From the IMG/VR virus record IMGVR_UViG_3300037324_000037, positions 1 through 36,318 of that record: a stretch of DNA of 36,318 nt, one strand, 5' to 3'. Position 1 is the first letter of the stretch; each line of letters begins with the position of its first letter. Positions 14,414-36,018 of this stretch are shown here, one piece after another. The notes below the pieces were generated by a model, which saw nothing but the letters and a program-made list of their open reading frames with translations, was not told where the DNA came from and searched no databases. This DNA comes from a virus. Position numbers and translations under genes: made by a program.

Positions 14414-16414
14414 TCAGGCGCCGTTGGCCTTGTGCAGGCCACGGAAGTCGACCGCTTTGGCGGCAAACCACAGCTTGCACTTGATGTCGACGCCGTCGAC
14501 TTCCCAGCCGCTTTTGCTGGTGACCGTGGGGCCTTCTGCGCCCTCGAGGTAGCAATATTCGACGGTATCAACCGCACCGCTGGAGGCGGCGGCGTACCAA
14601 GATGTGGCGCTCGTTTCGTCCAGAATCGGCTCGACGATGGGCTCCACAGCGGTGCGACCACCGGCTCGGAACTCGTTGATCGCGCCCACGGTGGCCGGCA
14701 CAAAGTTCGTGCTGGTGAGCTGGTAGGCGGTTTGCTCAAGCGAAACCGGCACGATCAGGTAAGCGGGTGCCAGGTTCAGCAGCTCGTTGCCTAGGCCTTT
14801 TTGCTTGCGCATGGCAGTGCGCGCGACAGCCAAAGAACTGGCCTGCAGTGCAGAAGGTGCGCCGGTTTGCAGGTTGCCGTTGGGTGCGCTGTAGTCGACG
14901 CCAACCAGCTGGGCGTATGCCAGGCGGTTTTCCAGGCGCGAGGCAGAGAAACCAAAGGCGCTCAGCAGCCGGTCAAAGCCGTTCAGGTCGTCGTTGATGA
15001 TGGCCTCTTCGGTCAACGACACAATGCGCCCGTACTTGACTACCTTGTAGCTGACCGCGCCGTCGACCAAGGTGCCGTAGGTGTATTCACCGGCTTCGTT
15101 GACCTGCATCAGATCGGGTGCGCCCGAGAGCTGCATCACGTTGATGTTTCGGGTGTCGGGTGCGTTTGGGGCGCGGCGAGCCCAGGCCTGGTACGTGCTG
15201 GCGCTTTCTTCGTAGGCGGCGCGCAGGCGCCGGTTGGCCACGCTGCCCAGCAGGCTGGCGAAGTCTGACGTGGTGTGCATGCCGCCGCTGCGCACCTGAA
15301 TCATGCCGCTGGCAATTTCGTTGCGCGCCATGCCGCGCGTGTTGACGCTGCTGCCCTCCAGCATTTCGCGCCCGATTTCGAGCAGGCTCATGCCCCGGTA
15401 CTGGCGGCCGTTGTCGTCCATTTGAGCGCTTGGGCTGATGCGGTGCATCATGGCTTGCTCAATGCCGGCCATGCGGGTGGTGTGCTGGTCGCGCACGGTC
15501 TCGATGCGGGGTGCTGAGTTGCGGTGCCCACCAGCGGCTGCGTCAACGCGGGCCAGCTCGTCTAGCACAGCGGATCGAGCGGCGCTCACATCGGCGCCGG
15601 ATCGAATGAGGCCAGCGGCCAGGGCGGGCACGCCGTGGCGGGCGCACAGCTCGCTGATGTCGGCGGCGCGGGCCTGCAGATCAACCGCCGGTGCGGCAGC
15701 TGCCTCGGGTGCGGCTGCTCGGGTTTCGGTGGCAGGGGTGACGGCGGCCGTGGTGGGGGTGCCGCCCTGTTCGTTTGCTTGGGGCATGGTTTCTTTCGGA
15801 GTGGTTTGGGCGGCTGCCCGGGTGACGAACTCGCAAGGCGTGGCGCCTGTTGAGGGTTGCGAGCGGGTGCCACTACCGGCGTCCGCAGGAACGGGAACAA
15901 AGGAGATTTCGGCGGGCGTCCAGCTGACAGCGCGGTAGAGCCAATTGGCACCGCCGTCGGTGCGCTGCTCGGGCGGCGTCATTTCCATACGCTCAACGGT
16001 GTAGCCCGCGCTGATGTGGCGGATGACGCCAGAGCGAATGTCGGCCACGATGCCCGCGAGCTCAGGGCGCTCGCTCAGGCGCACCATGGCGCGGCCTTCG
16101 GTGCCCGCTATCCATGCGCGTTCGACAACGCCAATCACGTCGCGCAGCTGGTATTGGCCGTGGGTGTCGAGCACGCTAGCACCGGCTGCCATTCGGCTCA
16201 TGTTCACAGCCGAATCACTCACCTCGAGCTCTTCGTCGTACAGGCGATCGCGCATGTAGTCGTAGCGGCGAACGCGGGCGCCGGTGGTGAACACCACCTC
16301 GACCGTGCGCGCGGCCTCATCGAATGTGGCTGGCTGAATCTGCGCTGCGCGGATCTGCGTGGGCAGGTCTGCGGTCTCGATGGCCGGGCTCGGCTGGGTT
16401 ACAGGGTGGGGCAT
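14414..16414 (-). CDS. Prohead protease / major capsid protein fusion (666 aa)
   Basis: One frame encodes both maturation protease and HK97-fold capsid. Residues about 20-180 are the protease: VLDTHGQ (His85), IRHISAGY (Ser135) and PAEISFVPVPADAG (Glu169 region) match the catalytic His and Ser motifs of HK97-type prohead proteases. Residues about 210-290 are an Ala/Pro-rich helical linker suited to a scaffold or delta domain. Residues about 330-666 are the major capsid protein (ASTYQAWARRAPNAPDTRN, EAIINDDLNGFDRL, WYAAASSGAVDTVEYCYLEG). Fusions of this kind occur in other phages. An internal ATG at 15787 (residue 210) with a modest GAAAG upstream could produce the capsid part alone. Confidence 0.92.
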   Translation of the reverse strand: MPHPVTQPSPAIETADLPTQIRAAQIQPATFDEAARTVEVVFTTGARVRRYDYMRDRLYDEELEVSDSAVNMSRMAAGASVLDTHGQYQLRDVIGVVERAWIAGTEGRAMVRLSERPELAGIVADIRSGVIRHISAGYTVERMEMTPPEQRTDGGANWLYRAVSWTPAEISFVPVPADAGSGTRSQPSTGATPCEFVTRAAAQTTPKETMPQANEQGGTPTTAAVTPATETRAAAPEAAAAPAVDLQARAADISELCARHGVPALAAGLIRSGADVSAARSAVLDELARVDAAAGGHRNSAPRIETVRDQHTTRMAGIEQAMMHRISPSAQMDDNGRQYRGMSLLEIGREMLEGSSVNTRGMARNEIASGMIQVRSGGMHTTSDFASLLGSVANRRLRAAYEESASTYQAWARRAPNAPDTRNINVMQLSGAPDLMQVNEAGEYTYGTLVDGAVSYKVVKYGRIVSLTEEAIINDDLNGFDRLLSAFGFSASRLENRLAYAQLVGVDYSAPNGNLQTGAPSALQASSLAVARTAMRKQKGLGNELLNLAPAYLIVPVSLEQTAYQLTSTNFVPATVGAINEFRAGGRTAVEPIVEPILDETSATSWYAAASSGAVDTVEYCYLEGAEGPTVTSKSGWEVDGVDIKCKLWFAAKAVDFRGLHKANGA

Positions 16415-16436
16415 GGGGTGGGATGTTGTTTGGGTT

Positions 16437-16465
16437 GGTGTCGCATTGCTGGCAGGGCTGCGACT
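16437..16465. repeat. 29-bp hairpin repeat, copy 1 (portal 3' end)
   Basis: Identical over 29 bp to 18204-18232. It contains GTCGCA and TGCGAC as inverted arms around a 13-base centre with a further GC/GC pair. This copy overlaps the last two bases of the portal stop codon and fills most of the gap before the capsid gene. Confidence 0.85.
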
Positions 16466-17966
16466 ATTTCGGGGGCGGCGCGTCTTCTGCGGGCATGACG
16501 GCGGCCACGTTGCCGCTCTTCATGGCCAGCAGATAGGCCAGGGTTCCGTCTGAGGCCAGGCGCTCCATGTCGCTCTTGATTTCCGCAAAAACGAGGTCGG
16601 GTTTGTATCCACGGCGGCGCAGCTTTTCGCTGATGGAGCACAGGCCGCCCTGCACTTCCGCGTTGTCTGCGTTCACTTCCTGCAGCGGGTTCACGTAGTC
16701 CCACTTCGGGGTGCACCAGTCGACCGCGTATTCGGCCTGGGGCATGGCGCCGCTGAGCACAGCAGCGTCAACCCACTCGCGCCAGACGCGCCGGCACAAA
16801 ACGGGGATGACCAGCAGAAACTGCACCTGCTCGACCGATCGACGAAAGTCAATCAACGCCACGCGGGCGCTGCTGAAATTGGTGCCAGACATATCGCCCG
16901 TGGCCATTTCGTATGTCACGCCGATGCCGGCCGCGATGGTGTGCTTCTGCTCTTTCACGTATTCGACGTAACCGGGCGCGACCTTGGGCTCGACCACGGT
17001 GAGCGTCATGCCGGGCGGGATCATTGTGATGCCGCCACTCGCGAGCTGGCCCAGCTCTTTCGGGTCGCTTGAGTCTTCGCCACCAGGGCCTGGGCCTTGC
17101 ATGGCGCTCAGATCGCCGGTGGCCAGCACGGCCAGGCGGGTCTCCAGGTTCTTGCGCTGCAACTCGGCGTCTTCGTACAACTGAAGGTCTCGCACGCGCG
17201 AAATCACCGGCGACAAGCGCGAGAAACCGCGCTGCTGGCCCGGCCGGTCGGGCCGGAAGAGGTGAATGATTCGGGTGGCGGGCACCGGGCGGCTGTAGGT
17301 TCCAGCGCGGCGCACAGCGGTTGTGATCTCGCCGGGGTGGCGGTCATACAGCCAGTAATTGACGATGCGGCCCAGTGGGTCGCATTCGATGCCGTTGACG
17401 ATGGTGTTGCCGCCCGCGGTGCCGTTTTTGCTGCTGTCGAGCCAGTCAATTTCGATCACCTGAAGTTGCATGGGCACAGGCAGGCCGTCGGCGGGGGCAC
17501 GCGGTCGAATGCGCACCAGCACCTCGCCGTCAACCTCCATGGCCCGGTAGGCGCGGGCCTGCAGGCCGTAAAAGTCGCTCAGGCCATCGGCGTCGGCCAC
17601 CTCGGCCCACTGGTCCCACAGCTTGTCAACGCGCTGGCGCGCAGCAGCGGTGTCGGCCAGGCTGCGCGGAGAGATGCCGGTGCCCACGGTGTACGACACG
17701 AGCGACTCGATGGCGCGCGAGACATAGGGCACGTTTTGCACCAGCGAGCGGGCGCGAATGCGCAGCTCGGCGCCGTCGCCCATGTGGTCGGTGTTGGCAC
17801 TGGCGCCTGGGCGCCGGGGCGCCCAGCCATCGCGCCGACTGGCGCCCTCATAAGCCCGGGTCAGCTGCTCGCGCGCAACAGCGCGCATGAGGCCAGCGCG
17901 CGGGGCAAAGTAGCCCACCACGCGATCAACAACGTTGCGGGTCATGGCCGCTTTTTTGTCGGCCAT
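16464..17966 (-). CDS. Portal protein (lambda gpB family)
   Basis: A 500-aa protein of the lambda-type portal family. Diagnostic stretches are LVQNVPYVSRAIESLVSYTVGTGI near residues 73-97, YRAMEVDGEVLVRIRPR near 138-154, QVIEIDWLDS near 168-177, GFSRLSPVISRVRDLQLYEDAELQRKNL near 244-272, and FSSARVALIDFRRSVEQVQF near 368-388. It should form the dodecameric ring at one capsid vertex through which DNA enters and exits. Its start overlaps the gpW stop at base 17966, and its end abuts a duplicated hairpin before the capsid gene. Confidence 0.94.
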   Translation of the reverse strand: MADKKAAMTRNVVDRVVGYFAPRAGLMRAVAREQLTRAYEGASRRDGWAPRRPGASANTDHMGDGAELRIRARSLVQNVPYVSRAIESLVSYTVGTGISPRSLADTAAARQRVDKLWDQWAEVADADGLSDFYGLQARAYRAMEVDGEVLVRIRPRAPADGLPVPMQLQVIEIDWLDSSKNGTAGGNTIVNGIECDPLGRIVNYWLYDRHPGEITTAVRRAGTYSRPVPATRIIHLFRPDRPGQQRGFSRLSPVISRVRDLQLYEDAELQRKNLETRLAVLATGDLSAMQGPGPGGEDSSDPKELGQLASGGITMIPPGMTLTVVEPKVAPGYVEYVKEQKHTIAAGIGVTYEMATGDMSGTNFSSARVALIDFRRSVEQVQFLLVIPVLCRRVWREWVDAAVLSGAMPQAEYAVDWCTPKWDYVNPLQEVNADNAEVQGGLCSISEKLRRRGYKPDLVFAEIKSDMERLASDGTLAYLLAMKSGNVAAVMPAEDAPPPK

Positions 17967-32957: not shown

Positions 32958-33331
32958 GCGATAAACAATTGATGCAAGACGCTTATGACGCGCTTTGCGT
33001 AGTTTTTCCAGGACAGCTAGCAATGGCTGAATGGGAGCAAAACGAAACACTTAGAGCAGCTCTACGCGAGCGGCTGGCGCAGCCTATTGCCAGCGGTCAG
33101 GAGCCGGTAGCTTGGTGGGATGAAGATGGCGTTCGTCTGCGCTACAGCGACACTGTTGACGTACCGCGTGGCACTCCGCTCTATTTTCACCCAGCACCAG
33201 CACAGCATCCGCTACGTCGTGATGAAGTTGCAGACTTGCATGAGGAAACCGAGCCACTGTGCTCGTTGTATACATTTCGGGATATTGTCGCAGACATAGA
33301 AGCCAAACACGGCATCAAGGAAAAGCCATGA
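32954..33331 (+). CDS. Accessory protein B of a paralogous pair (125 aa)
   Basis: Starts MSDKQLMQDAYDALCVVFPGQLAMAEW, then IASGQEPVAWWDEDGVRLRYSDT, TPLYFHPAPAQHPLRRDE, and ends EAKHGIKEKP. The central and C-terminal phrases match the preceding gene at protein and DNA level, so the two arose by duplication; the N-terminal 30 residues differ. Overlaps both neighbours by ATGA. No recognised function. Confidence 0.72.
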   Translation: MSDKQLMQDAYDALCVVFPGQLAMAEWEQNETLRAALRERLAQPIASGQEPVAWWDEDGVRLRYSDTVDVPRGTPLYFHPAPAQHPLRRDEVADLHEETEPLCSLYTFRDIVADIEAKHGIKEKP

Positions 33332-34023
33332 TATTGAACACGACTTTGGAAAAAATCAGGGAGCACTCGCCATGCCGCGACGGCTGGGCGAAATTGCTCA
33401 AGCATCTGGGCAAGACCGCAGCCGACAACGAGCCGCTGGCCATCGTCACGATCATCGACGCAAACAAGCTCGATGACGCGCTGTGGTGCTTGCGCGCTGT
33501 CAGCGGCCATGACCATGAGATTCGGCTTTTTGGCGTTTGGTGCGCCCGCCAGGTGCAGCACCTGATGAAGGACCCGCGATCAATTGCCTCGCTCGATGTT
33601 GCAGAACGCTTTGCGAATGGCGAAGCGAGCGAGAAAGAGTTGTCCGACGCAGGGGCCGCCGCATGGGCAGCAAGGGCCGCCGCAGGGGCCGCCGCAGGGG
33701 CCGCCGCAGGGGCCGCCGCATGGGACGACGCAAGGGCCGCCGCGTTGGCCGCATGGGCCGCCGCAAGTGCCGCAGGGGACGCCGCAAGGGACGCCGCAGG
33801 GGCAGCAAGGGCCGCCGCATGGGCAGCAGGGGCCGCCGCAGGGGCCGCCGCAGGGGCCGCCGCAGGGGCCGCCGCAGGGGCCGCCGCGTTGGCCGCATGG
33901 GCCGCCGCAAGGGACGCCGCAAGGGCCGCCGCAAGTGCCGCACGGGACGCCGCAAGTGCCGCCCAGGAAAAAGAGCTTCGCGCCGTATGCGCCCGCATTA
34001 CCGAGCAGGAGGCAGGAAATTAA
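33328..34023 (+). CDS. Ala-rich repeat protein with conserved N-domain (231 aa)
   Basis: ATG 33328 overlaps the previous stop by ATGA; a longer frame exists upstream. Residues 1-100 are a conserved domain (SPCRDGWAKLLKHLGKT, LAIVTIIDANKLDDALWCLRAV, EIRLFGVWCARQVQHLMKD, SLDVAERFANGEAS) seen in phage and bacterial proteins sometimes labelled 'putative immunity'. Residues about 109-214 are an Ala-rich array (AAAGAAAGAAAGAAAW...), encoded by a 12-nt GGGGCCGCCGCA repeat, likely one long helix. A charged tail (QEKELRAVCARITEQEAG) ends it. Expansion of the repeat is stronger than in relatives I recall. Function unknown. Confidence 0.75.
   Translation: MILNTTLEKIREHSPCRDGWAKLLKHLGKTAADNEPLAIVTIIDANKLDDALWCLRAVSGHDHEIRLFGVWCARQVQHLMKDPRSIASLDVAERFANGEASEKELSDAGAAAWAARAAAGAAAGAAAGAAAWDDARAAALAAWAAASAAGDAARDAAGAARAAAWAAGAAAGAAAGAAAGAAAGAAALAAWAAARDAARAAASAARDAASAAQEKELRAVCARITEQEAGN
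33650..33966 (+). repeat. 12-nt GC-rich tandem repeat array
   Basis: About 26 units of GGGGCCGCCGCA and variants (GGGACGCCGCAA, TTGGCCGCATGG, AAGTGCCGCA...). Because the unit is a multiple of three and free of stops, all six frames stay open here, producing spurious long frames on both strands. G-runs every 12 bases could form quadruplexes. Confidence 0.92.
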
Positions 34024-34056: not shown

Positions 34057-34458
34057 ATGGGCATGCAAAGCCACCAACAACAGGTAGTTGATTTCCTCCG
34101 TGAAAATCCAAAAAGTACCGGCGCAGAGATAGCTGCCGGTCTTGCGAAATACGGCAAGAGCCAGAATTCAATTGACTTACTTATTAAAGCGTTGCGCACA
34201 AAAGGATTGTGCAAAATGACGGGCCGGCCGGGTATTGAGTGGCGGTATGAACTGACCGAGCTTTGCAAAGCCAATGGCTTTTGTAGTGTGCTTCCAGACA
34301 AGACCGTCACGGTCTCAGTCAAGACAATGGCCCCGGTTCCCGAGGGCACAGCTCTAGTCAAAATGCCATCTGTGTATCGACCATACGTGCCCGGCGCGTG
34401 GGAGTCGGTTCGGCCCGGCGCTGACGATCACAAAAGGCATAAGTCCTTGGTCATCTAA
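34057..34458 (+). CDS. wHTH protein closing the rightward operon (133 aa)
   Basis: MGMQSHQQQVVDFLRENPKSTGAEIAAGLAKYGKSQNSIDLLIKALRTKGLCKMTG is a winged helix (VVDFLRENPKSTGAEIAAGL, SIDLLIKALRTKGLC). The C-terminal part (PVPEGTALVKMPSVYRPYVPGAWESVRPGAD) is Pro-rich and unlike the rest. It is preceded by AAGGAATAATC, a fair ribosome-binding site. It is the last gene before a strong terminator; a regulator or host-takeover factor is plausible. Confidence 0.78.
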   Translation: MGMQSHQQQVVDFLRENPKSTGAEIAAGLAKYGKSQNSIDLLIKALRTKGLCKMTGRPGIEWRYELTELCKANGFCSVLPDKTVTVSVKTMAPVPEGTALVKMPSVYRPYVPGAWESVRPGADDHKRHKSLVI

Positions 34459-34461
34459 AAG

Positions 34462-34499
34462 AAAAAGCCCGACATGGGTTTTCACATATCGGGCTTTTT
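34462..34499. terminator. Bidirectional intrinsic terminator between converging operons
   Basis: AAAAAGCCCGA (34462-34472) pairs with TCGGGCTTTTT (34489-34499) over 11 bp around a 16-base loop, with T-runs on both strands. It ends the rightward operon and, reading left, the late transcript coming from Rz and the 48-aa gene. Confidence 0.92.
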
Positions 34500-34571
34500 G
34501 GTTGATAACAGCATCGGATTGCACCGACTTCTGAACCGTTCCTTGGGGCCGGGTAGGTTATTTACGGGCTT

Positions 34572-34792
34572 GCCATCAAATAAACGGGCCGGAGCTGATC
34601 CCGGCATCCCCTGCAAACCATGACAGGGCTTTTGGTTGGTTCGCGTATCAGCCTACGCATTCCGCTAAAAAGTTTGATGGTGGCCGGTGCTGATCTCCGG
34701 CTTGTTCTGCTCACCACGTCGGCAGTCTCGCGATTTTAATGTGCGGGTCACACGTCTGTCGGTCGGCGCATCAGCCTGCGCGGTTCACCATC
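34572..34792. ncRNA. Tandem structured-RNA candidate (two units) in the gene-free stretch 34500-34798
   Basis: Unit A is closed by CCATCAAA (34573-34580) with TTTGATGG (34673-34680). Unit B is closed by GATGGTG (34676-34682) with CACCATC (34786-34792); the shared strand means they compete. Each unit has hairpin 1, GCCGG...CCGGC (34588-34605; 34683-34701) with GCTGA in the loop, and hairpin 2 with loop TCAGCC (GCGTA/TACGC 34643-34658; GCGCA/TGCGC 34766-34781). The loops GCTGA and TCAGC are complementary. Unit A has a middle CCCTG/CAGGG stem. The strand is undetermined; on the minus strand it would sit between the 48-aa gene and the terminator. No coding frame or tRNA was found here. Confidence 0.6.
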
Positions 34793-34798
34793 ATCAGT

Positions 34799-34945
34799 TT
34801 ACTTGTTTTTTGCCGTCTTTGCGGACTTTTTAAAGTCTTTCGCGGACGGCGCGGCCTTGGAGCCGACCGGGTTCATGCGCTCTTTCGATCCTGCTTTGAT
34901 GCGATCTTGTTTCGCATTGATGTTTGCGTACAGTCCTGCTTTCAT
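34799..34945 (-). CDS. Small basic conserved phage protein (48 aa)
   Basis: ATG 34945 to TAA 34799 encodes MKAGLYANINAKQDRIKAGS then KERMNPVGSKAAPSAKDFKKSAKTAKNK. I recognise this type ('MKAGLYANINAK..RI.AGS.EKM..PGSKGAPTAK.FK..AKTAK') as a recurrent short, Lys-rich phage protein without known function. It is intrinsically disordered in appearance, with a repeated KxAKTAK tail. It follows Rz on the minus strand. Direct and inverted repeats seen at 34812-34850 are explained by its codons. Confidence 0.82.
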   Translation of the reverse strand: MKAGLYANINAKQDRIKAGSKERMNPVGSKAAPSAKDFKKSAKTAKNK

Positions 34946-35009
34946 GGTCACCGTTCTTTCTGTTGGTTGAGTAGTTTTTACTTGCGATCTAGGTGCGCAG
35001 TATGCCAGA

Positions 35010-35534
35010 TCACCGCGTCAGGGCTTCGCGGGCTTCGCCGTACCTGCGCTGGCAGGCGGCACCGGCAAAGTGGGCGTCGTCAGCCGCGAGAGCCAAGATT
35101 CCCGCAGCCTCGTCAGCCCGCTCTCGCAAGTCGGAGAGCAAATTGGCGGCAGCGCTGGCTGCTGCGCGTACCTCGGCAGCGGTGGCATCTGCGCGGGTTT
35201 GACCGGCAAGCTCGGCAGTGGCGCGGGCGGCGTCGCGCAGCCGGATAGCAACAACAGCGCCAGCGACACGCTCGGCAGTGCGAGCCGCGTTAGCCGCGGC
35301 GATTTCTTTGGCGTGTATTTCGACGGCATCATTCAGCTCCTGCTCGATCTGTCGGTTTTTCGATTCTTGATTCGCTCGGGCCGTCTGCTGCGCTAGGCGC
35401 TCGATATTCCAGAGCGCCTGAGTACTCGCCGTCCCGGATCGCACCCCGCTGTTGTGCGCGTACCAAACACCAGCGGCAAGTAAGATGCTGATAGCCGTGG
35501 TCGCAGCTATTCGGGAGGACAGGGGTGTCCACAT
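35010..35534 (-). CDS. Rz: Rz-like inner-membrane spanin (DUF2514-type)
   Basis: ATG 35534 is preceded by GGAGG with six-base spacing; a longer frame to 35612 lacks such a site. The 174-aa product has a single N-terminal TM segment (residues about 8-26, RIAATTAISILLAAGVWYA) and a long Ala/Glu/Arg periplasmic helix (AQQTARANQESKNRQIEQELNDAVE...) suited to the coiled coil of an i-spanin. The DUF2514-like layout and the nested lipoprotein gene identify it as Rz. Together with Rz1 it fuses inner and outer membranes in the last step of lysis. Confidence 0.88.
   Translation of the reverse strand: MWTPLSSRIAATTAISILLAAGVWYAHNSGVRSGTASTQALWNIERLAQQTARANQESKNRQIEQELNDAVEIHAKEIAAANAARTAERVAGAVVAIRLRDAARATAELAGQTRADATAAEVRAAASAAANLLSDLRERADEAAGILALAADDAHFAGAACQRRYGEAREALTR
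35018..35332 (-). CDS. Rz1: Rz1-like outer-membrane lipoprotein spanin, nested in Rz
   Basis: Fully inside Rz in another frame. MMPSKYTPKKSPRLTRLALPSVSLALLLLSGC is a lipoprotein signal peptide: a basic start, a hydrophobic core and lipobox LSGC with Cys32. The mature part (73 residues) is Pro-rich (TPPAPLPSLPVKPAQMPPLP), the classic o-spanin composition. Two extra Cys (ICSPTC) could form a disulfide or dimer. Its partner is Rz. Embedded Rz/Rz1 pairs are known from lambda-like phages. Confidence 0.9.
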   Translation of the reverse strand: MMPSKYTPKKSPRLTRLALPSVSLALLLLSGCATPPAPLPSLPVKPAQMPPLPRYAQQPALPPICSPTCESGLTRLRESWLSRLTTPTLPVPPASAGTAKPAKP

Positions 35535-35593
35535 CAAAGCCCTCCGTTCAGTTTTGCGGCTGTTTCCGAGTCCAACGGCTTGCGATTGCTCAT
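35534..35593 (-). CDS. Mini-ORF (19 aa) upstream of Rz
   Basis: ATG 35593 overlaps the previous stop as ATGA, and its TGA overlaps the Rz start as TGATG. It reads MSNRKPLDSETAAKLNGGL and fills the gap exactly, with the Rz ribosome-binding site inside its last codons. It may serve mainly to hand ribosomes to Rz; a real peptide function is doubtful. Confidence 0.42.
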   Translation of the reverse strand: MSNRKPLDSETAAKLNGGL

Positions 35594-36018
35594 GCCACAT
35601 ACTCCAGCTCAATCAGCACCAGCCCCATAGCGGCCAACACTGCCAGCGCATCGTTACCTGGGCAAGCGGTCAGCTTGTTGGGCATTGCTGCTACTGGCTC
35701 CAGGCTGTACACCAATGCCGTCTGCGCTCGACGTGCTGCGTACATGTCAATAATGCCATCACCACCGGGGCTACCAACACCTTCCTCGTCGGCAGTTTCG
35801 CCAACAACATCCCACTGTGGCCGCTGCAATTCGCCCTGCAATCTTTCAACCAGATTTTTGGGAGCCACGAAGGAGGCACAGGAATACAAATTTCCCGCTG
35901 CGTCCTGCCAATTTGGCTCTCCATAGGTAAGCGCATCTGCCGGGCCATAGCACAGCACCATTGCAAGGTGGTTCGCGTCGCCTCGCAATGCGGCAGGACA
36001 AGCGGCTGTTACTCTCAT
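35590..36018 (-). CDS. Conserved protein after the tail fibre (142 aa), unknown
   Basis: MRVTAACPAALRGDANHLAMVLCYGPADALTYGEPNWQDAAGNLYSCASFVAP, then helix ERLQGELQRPQWDVV and a C-terminal AMPNKLTACPGNDALAVLAAMGLVLIELE. The phrase 'AACPAALRGDANHLAMVLGYGPADALTYGEPNWQDAAGNLY' is one I recall from genes following tail fibres in Burkholderiales prophages. Its role may be fibre assembly, but that is inference from position. It is coupled to the fibre by ATGA and to the next mini-ORF by ATGA. Confidence 0.7.
   Translation of the reverse strand: MRVTAACPAALRGDANHLAMVLCYGPADALTYGEPNWQDAAGNLYSCASFVAPKNLVERLQGELQRPQWDVVGETADEEGVGSPGGDGIIDMYAARRAQTALVYSLEPVAAMPNKLTACPGNDALAVLAAMGLVLIELEYVA

Follow-up and report, generated by a model that had tools for sequence, protein, structure and literature searches.

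A tandem phage RNA element with a conserved clamp and exchangeable inserts, located at the putative 3' end of a late transcript

The stretch of viral DNA analyzed here (36,318 nucleotides, IMG/VR record IMGVR_UViG_3300037324_000037; in the following called the window) carries its late genes on the minus strand, among them those for the portal and the major head protein (14417–17966), an Rz-like spanin gene (35013–35612; PHROGs phrog_312, E 1.6e-19) and, further along the same late operon, a small gene encoding 48 aa of unknown function (34799–34945; phrog_16028, PHROGs E 1.7e-18). The phrog_16028 family comprises small basic proteins, and its gene lies directly upstream of the RNA described below and in the same late transcript. 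Directly after this gene two tandem units follow, read on the minus strand from 34797 to 34671 and then from 34669 to 34580, with an outer stem that extends to 34573. Behind them we read from the sequence a GC-rich hairpin flanked by A and T runs (34462–34499), which can serve as a terminator on either strand and can close the minus-strand transcript. As the units are located between the last late gene and this two-way hairpin, the late transcript would have them as its 3' end. Our proposal is that a structured noncoding RNA is made from this locus as the 3'-terminal part of the minus-strand late (lysis) transcript, and this explanation, taken as a whole together with the role discussed below, has in our judgement slightly less than an even chance of being correct. 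No tRNA was found in the window using ARAGORN. An ORF at 33259–34023 contains long GC-rich repeats that encode alanine-rich runs.

The minus strand could be assigned as the RNA strand using the covariance model R1, which scored unit 1 (34671–34797) with 75 bits (E 2.6e-16) and unit 2 (34580–34669) with 41.3 bits when filters were off, compared to 6 bits for the plus strand. A first-pass annotation made from the sequence had implied the plus strand, and the elements within a unit therefore run in the reverse of the order given there. Its description of two adjacent units with a common architecture could be confirmed at the same place: in both, a closing stem encloses two hairpins with complementary loops, A (loop AGGCUGAU) and B (loop AG-AUCAGC-A), and a variable insert between them, with unit 1 as a canonical family member and unit 2 as a divergent copy. 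On the minus strand, unit 1 starts with the 5' strand of the closing stem TGATGGTG (34786–34793), which pairs with 34675–34682 and whose equivalent covaries in 64 and in 111 homologues. It is followed by hairpin A (GCGC-AGGCTGAT-GCGC, 34766–34781), nearly invariant among the homologues, an insert of 64 nt (34702–34765) and hairpin B (GCCGG-AGATCAGCA-CCGGC, 34683–34701), the loop of which is complementary to that of hairpin A and may take part in a kissing contact, for which homologues show limited covariation. Unit 2 has the hairpins GCGT-AGGCTGAT-ACGC (A, 34643–34658) and GCCGG-GATCAGCT-CCGGC (B, 34588–34605) on both sides of an insert of 37 nt (34606–34642), and its inner closing stem (34583–34666) is formed by AGCGG (34662–34666) and CCGTT (34583–34587), with a forced fold of -69.5 kcal/mol. 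GATCAGC is present in the hairpin B loops of both units. The change from GCGTA/TACGC to GCGCA/TGCGC between the units, noticed in the first pass, is indeed there and is compensatory.

The folding energy of the locus is no better than that of shuffled sequences (z -0.67 for the plus and -0.92 for the minus strand), so the case from a single sequence would have been weak and it is the homologues that settle it. A blastn search against phage records detected a piece of the element of about 35 nt repeatedly in gaps without annotation, in phages that are unrelated to each other, including lambdoid HK629 and Klebsiella, Pseudomonas, Alcaligenes and Schitoviridae phages. When these gaps were read in the opposite orientation they resolved into one frame, with a closing stem nnnGGTG...CACCnnn and hairpins A and B flanking a variable stretch. 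Using the exact frame as pattern (GCGC-AGGCTGAT-GCGC plus GCCGG-AGATCAGCA-CCGGC within the closing stem, 40-plus bases) we found at least 80 IMG/VR contigs with inserts of 40–70 nt, 99 stretches with inserts of 66–96 nt and eight with inserts of 8–38 nt, amounting to well over 150 IMG/VR contigs in all. Related copies are present in 240 INPHARED phage records and in PLSDB (319), and the named carriers are P1, P7, D3, HK629, HK633, IME11 and the BASEL phage Bas79. The exact pattern was detected in only eight contigs among 84,980 species genomes, showing that the element is mainly phage-borne. Copies in tandem occur in the window, in P1 and in three further loci (L066, L067 and L009). P1 (L089:2058-2187) and P7 (L090:2025-2150) also carry a further divergent unit (28–29 bits) with shortened loops, GGCTAA facing AAGCA or AGGCA.

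Covariation was analyzed for 64 sequences, in which 84 cells are changed on both sides of a pair, compared to 29.8 expected from shuffles, and sliding the partners abolished the signal. The closing stem (columns 7–138) shows six pair types and is paired in 63 of the 64. Since bases outside the search pattern offer an unbiased test, we also followed the outer closing pairs through the 111 clusters of unrelated inserts. The first pair is formed in 111 of them, the second in 107 and the third in 100, and all four Watson-Crick types are found at the first two. In hairpin A the fourth pair varies while staying paired (C-G, U-A, U-G and G-C). The structured RNA suspected in the first pass, for which a covariance check with homologues had been suggested, is supported, with strong covariation of the closing stem.

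For the loops, which had been described as complementary and able to kiss, the picture is more limited. With search patterns leaving loop B free, the outer loop pair of the contact is G-C in 133 cases, G-U in nine, A-U in three and A-C in two (Fisher p 0.004, or 0.0005 with P7 added), and it is A-U in P7 and G-C in P1. Two other kissing pairs were scanned for compensatory change and none was found. Otherwise the contact is nearly invariant, with covariation at one of the six pairs and the remaining ones being invariant or showing a single mismatch. The kissing contact is likely to be real, with limited direct covariation behind it.

The surroundings of the element in other phages point to a preferred strand. 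The tRNA genes up to 2.5 kb away from a module are without exception on its strand, and terminator-like sites within 100 nt on the same strand are located downstream at 20% of the loci and upstream at 2%, with 0% on the opposite strand. In lambdoid phages the element is located between Q/pR' and the holin gene, in P1 between tRNA-Thr and tRNA-Ile (ban region) and in other homologues inside tRNA clusters. As it can be found in a leader, at a 3' end or in a tRNA cluster, its position relative to genes is flexible, whereas strand and neighbourhood are not. A packaging element, which had also been considered in the first pass, is not favoured by these locations. When P1 genes were targeted by CRISPRi, plp (the gene opposite the RNA), upl, trnT and trnI scored as non-essential (PMC10695390), so any role would be accessory under laboratory conditions. 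The plp ORF (L089:1455-1832) crosses the start of the module in antisense orientation and may be a spurious gene call. Unannotated gaps of 2–3 kb are present in IME11 and in Klebsiella phage MDA2066, and the one in MDA2066 (L007:600-3816; 3.2 kb from a tRNA to the next gene) holds the module as well as an Rfam STnc100 match and is possibly a giant RNA locus.

The most variable part of the element is the insert, as 189 copies with the exact frame contain 145 distinct inserts that fall into 111 unrelated clusters. Unrelated inserts are present between flanks that are 98.8 and 97.3% identical (L022 and L050) or 91% and 93% identical (L002 and L075), and the same insert is found between unrelated flanks (L020/L022 and L026/L035). 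The insert of unit 1 in the window likewise shares 81% identity with the insert of L015/L126, the flanks being dissimilar. From similar flanks around unrelated inserts and identical inserts between unrelated flanks we conclude that the insert acts like a cassette; homology for its exchange could come from the constant frame. Such an exchange between constant arms is also what a DNA element would offer, that is a recombination, packaging or replication site that forms hairpins incidentally; we regard this as very improbable, because the bias towards the strand of tRNAs and terminators and the pairwise covariation of the closing stem both point to a single-stranded RNA.

The inserts are slightly more structured than shuffled sequences (mean z -0.67, s.e. 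0.12). A search for their partner, in which complementarity to the own locus and likeness to rRNA were compared, found none. Inserts as antisense RNAs against the locus of their own phage were rejected with complementarity at the shuffled level. Inserts as general rRNA mimics were rejected as well, with only one insert group standing out: that of L027, L050, L073, L082 and L085 resembles 16S rRNA helices 11–12 (29 nt, 86% to E. coli 16S), with an E value of 0.004 for one query that is not significant when allowing for 59 insert clusters. General tRNA mimicry was also discarded, as strict T-arms were present in four of 87 upstream stretches and two of 87 inserts, which is rare though above background; with so few upstream stretches carrying them, acting as a decoy is no general property.

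A variable insert in a constant frame would fit a base-pairing small RNA, in which the clamp stabilises the molecule and antisense seeds against mRNAs of the host or of rival phages are located in the insert. Prophage sRNAs with divergent seeds (STnc100/Pas) are encoded in late/lysis Q-to-holin neighbourhoods (PMC13192938), the same ones in which the element occurs, and the STnc100 match in the MDA2066 gap adds to this. The window itself has no STnc100 match and the one in MDA2066 lies elsewhere in the gap than the module. With inserts that tend to be structured and lack excess complementarity to their own locus, we consider a small RNA of this kind rather improbable.

The two units of the window share a strand (CACCATCAAA, 34673–34682, minus strand), which can close unit 1 on its 3' side or serve unit 2 as outer strand on the 5' side. 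It was rightly noted in the first pass that this strand, CCATCA(AA), can pair either with 34786–34793 or with 34573–34580, the latter being the outer 3' strand of unit 2 (TTTGATGG, minus strand) that competes for it. With the hairpins fixed, the alternatives have energies of -71.5 and -68.3 kcal/mol, and the difference between them ranges from 0.1 to 3.2 kcal/mol. At many other loci an extra helix is present directly 5' of the module, and because its 3' strand overlaps the closing stem, typically by 3–5 nt, the same bases can pair upstream or downstream. Thus the alternative pairing recurs in the family, and from the notion of a switch this part stands; that the pairing acts as a regulatory switch is only possible. 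Sharing a strand between neighbouring stems probably guides co-transcriptional folding or lets tandem units alternate.

The main rival to a scaffold role starts from this competition and takes the element for a cis-acting switch or processing element, in which the shared strand would decide how the late or tRNA transcript is terminated or processed or how stable it is, with the insert being no more than a tolerated linker. The recurrence of the strand competition in many homologues, the enrichment of terminators just downstream and the sites in late leaders or at 3' ends near tRNA genes all agree with it. We nevertheless judge it unlikely, even if it comes before the other rivals, the small RNA included: the position relative to genes varies from a lambdoid leader over the 3' end in the window to tRNA clusters elsewhere, and a mere linker would leave unexplained why inserts are structured and exchanged as whole cassettes and why the loops are conserved beyond their pairing.

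Several known RNAs were compared with the element. In the purine riboswitch fold one stem closes a junction with two hairpins, the loops of which pair with each other. The element shares the closing stem and the two hairpins with complementary loops but has a long variable insert between the hairpins and no conserved ligand-binding junction, and the Rfam model for the riboswitch did not match in the window. The c4 antisense RNA is a phage RNA with hairpins as well. It had been considered in the first pass, and its model (RF01695) gave no match at gathering score in the window and none up to E 10 within 34400–35000, so this assignment was dropped. None of the Rfam 15 families matched the window at gathering score and matches at E up to 10 were at chance level, in agreement with the earlier suggestion of an undescribed motif.

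Closer parallels are offered by two large phage RNAs. GOLLD is encoded by phages or prophages close to tRNA islands and has kissing loops as well as a variable region that sometimes holds a tRNA (PMC12286853). ROOL, also a phage RNA of tRNA islands, has kissing loops too, and its linker shows no similarity in sequence or structure across homologues (PMC12286853). Many homologues of the element are likewise located in phage tRNA clusters on the same strand (the window itself being without a tRNA), and with both RNAs it has probable kissing loops and a variable part in common. It differs from GOLLD, which is longer than 800 nt, by its modules of about 110 nt, their tandem arrangement and the cassette exchange of inserts, and from ROOL by another secondary structure and a much smaller unit. 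Membership in either family was excluded, as no GOLLD or ROOL model matched in the window or in the loci scanned.

This likeness also raises the idea of an oligomerising RNA similar to the GOLLD and ROOL cages, with kissing between molecules or between tandem units. Besides kissing loops, tRNA-cluster locations and a variable linker able to hold tRNA-like sequence, the tandem copies and the 2–3 kb gaps of IME11 and MDA2066 would suit it. A single copy already has both complementary loops, making intramolecular pairing the simplest solution, and with no match to GOLLD or ROOL we place this idea below the small RNA in probability.

By analogy to GOLLD and ROOL, a phage scaffold RNA whose insert sets the partner is the reading we favour, with a confidence just short of even. 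The comparison of homologues shows a conserved RNA clamp with a nearly invariant frame that holds an exchangeable insert. In this clamp the closing stem brings hairpins A and B together, and a contact of five to six bases between their loops (GCUGAU with AUCAGC) is likely. In the proposed model the clamp would be a constant presentation scaffold. The insert would confer specificity by contacting a partner in trans, which might be an RNA-binding or RNA-cleaving factor of the host or another RNA. That the insert changes rapidly while the frame is fixed agrees with a specificity part that experiences changing selection. The element may belong with the scaffold RNAs of phage tRNA islands and has some chance of being a new class.

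More tentatively, and with less confidence than in the scaffold role as such, it might represent a class of phage RNA not yet described. Here the clamp would serve as a universal display frame for a specificity cassette, the insert, which would change fast, be exchanged horizontally and act for example as a decoy or binder against RNA-acting factors of the host. If this is true, such a class is present and unannotated in the classical phages P1 and D3. The family is found in textbook phages, an N4-like one among them, and in hundreds of records and yet has no Rfam family, and in P1 an ORF has been annotated antisense to it. It is unusual for an RNA to combine an invariant frame with exchangeable inserts, which points to a fast adaptation to varying partners. 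The element may also shed light on the reason for which phages maintain noncoding RNA next to tRNA genes, a question it shares with GOLLD and ROOL, and as laboratory phages carry the element its role is directly testable. A literature search, covering few subscription journals, found no paper with the core sequences or with the tag peptides described next.

A tmRNA-like stretch is located upstream of the module in some phages (L002, L007, L092, L093 and L096-L120) and encodes an in-frame tag of 10 residues in 29 of 29 loci. The tags are ANEEMYLAVA, ANDNTFLAVA, ANDQTFLAVA, ANDDVVLMAA and ANDDLMLMAA, with a synonymous change in one of them. Most of these 29 loci have the loop-A motif of the module within 300 nt downstream, and the Rfam tmRNA model reaches only 13 bits. 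The module as a part of a tmRNA was rejected: it has no tag itself, and the tag stretch is located upstream of it in some phages only, the window, P1 and D3 being without one. Directly upstream of the module in another locus (L045:2873-2936) we observed a tRNA-like sequence that was not called by ARAGORN, reaches 44.9 bits with the Rfam tRNA model and seems to be without a normal anticodon arm.
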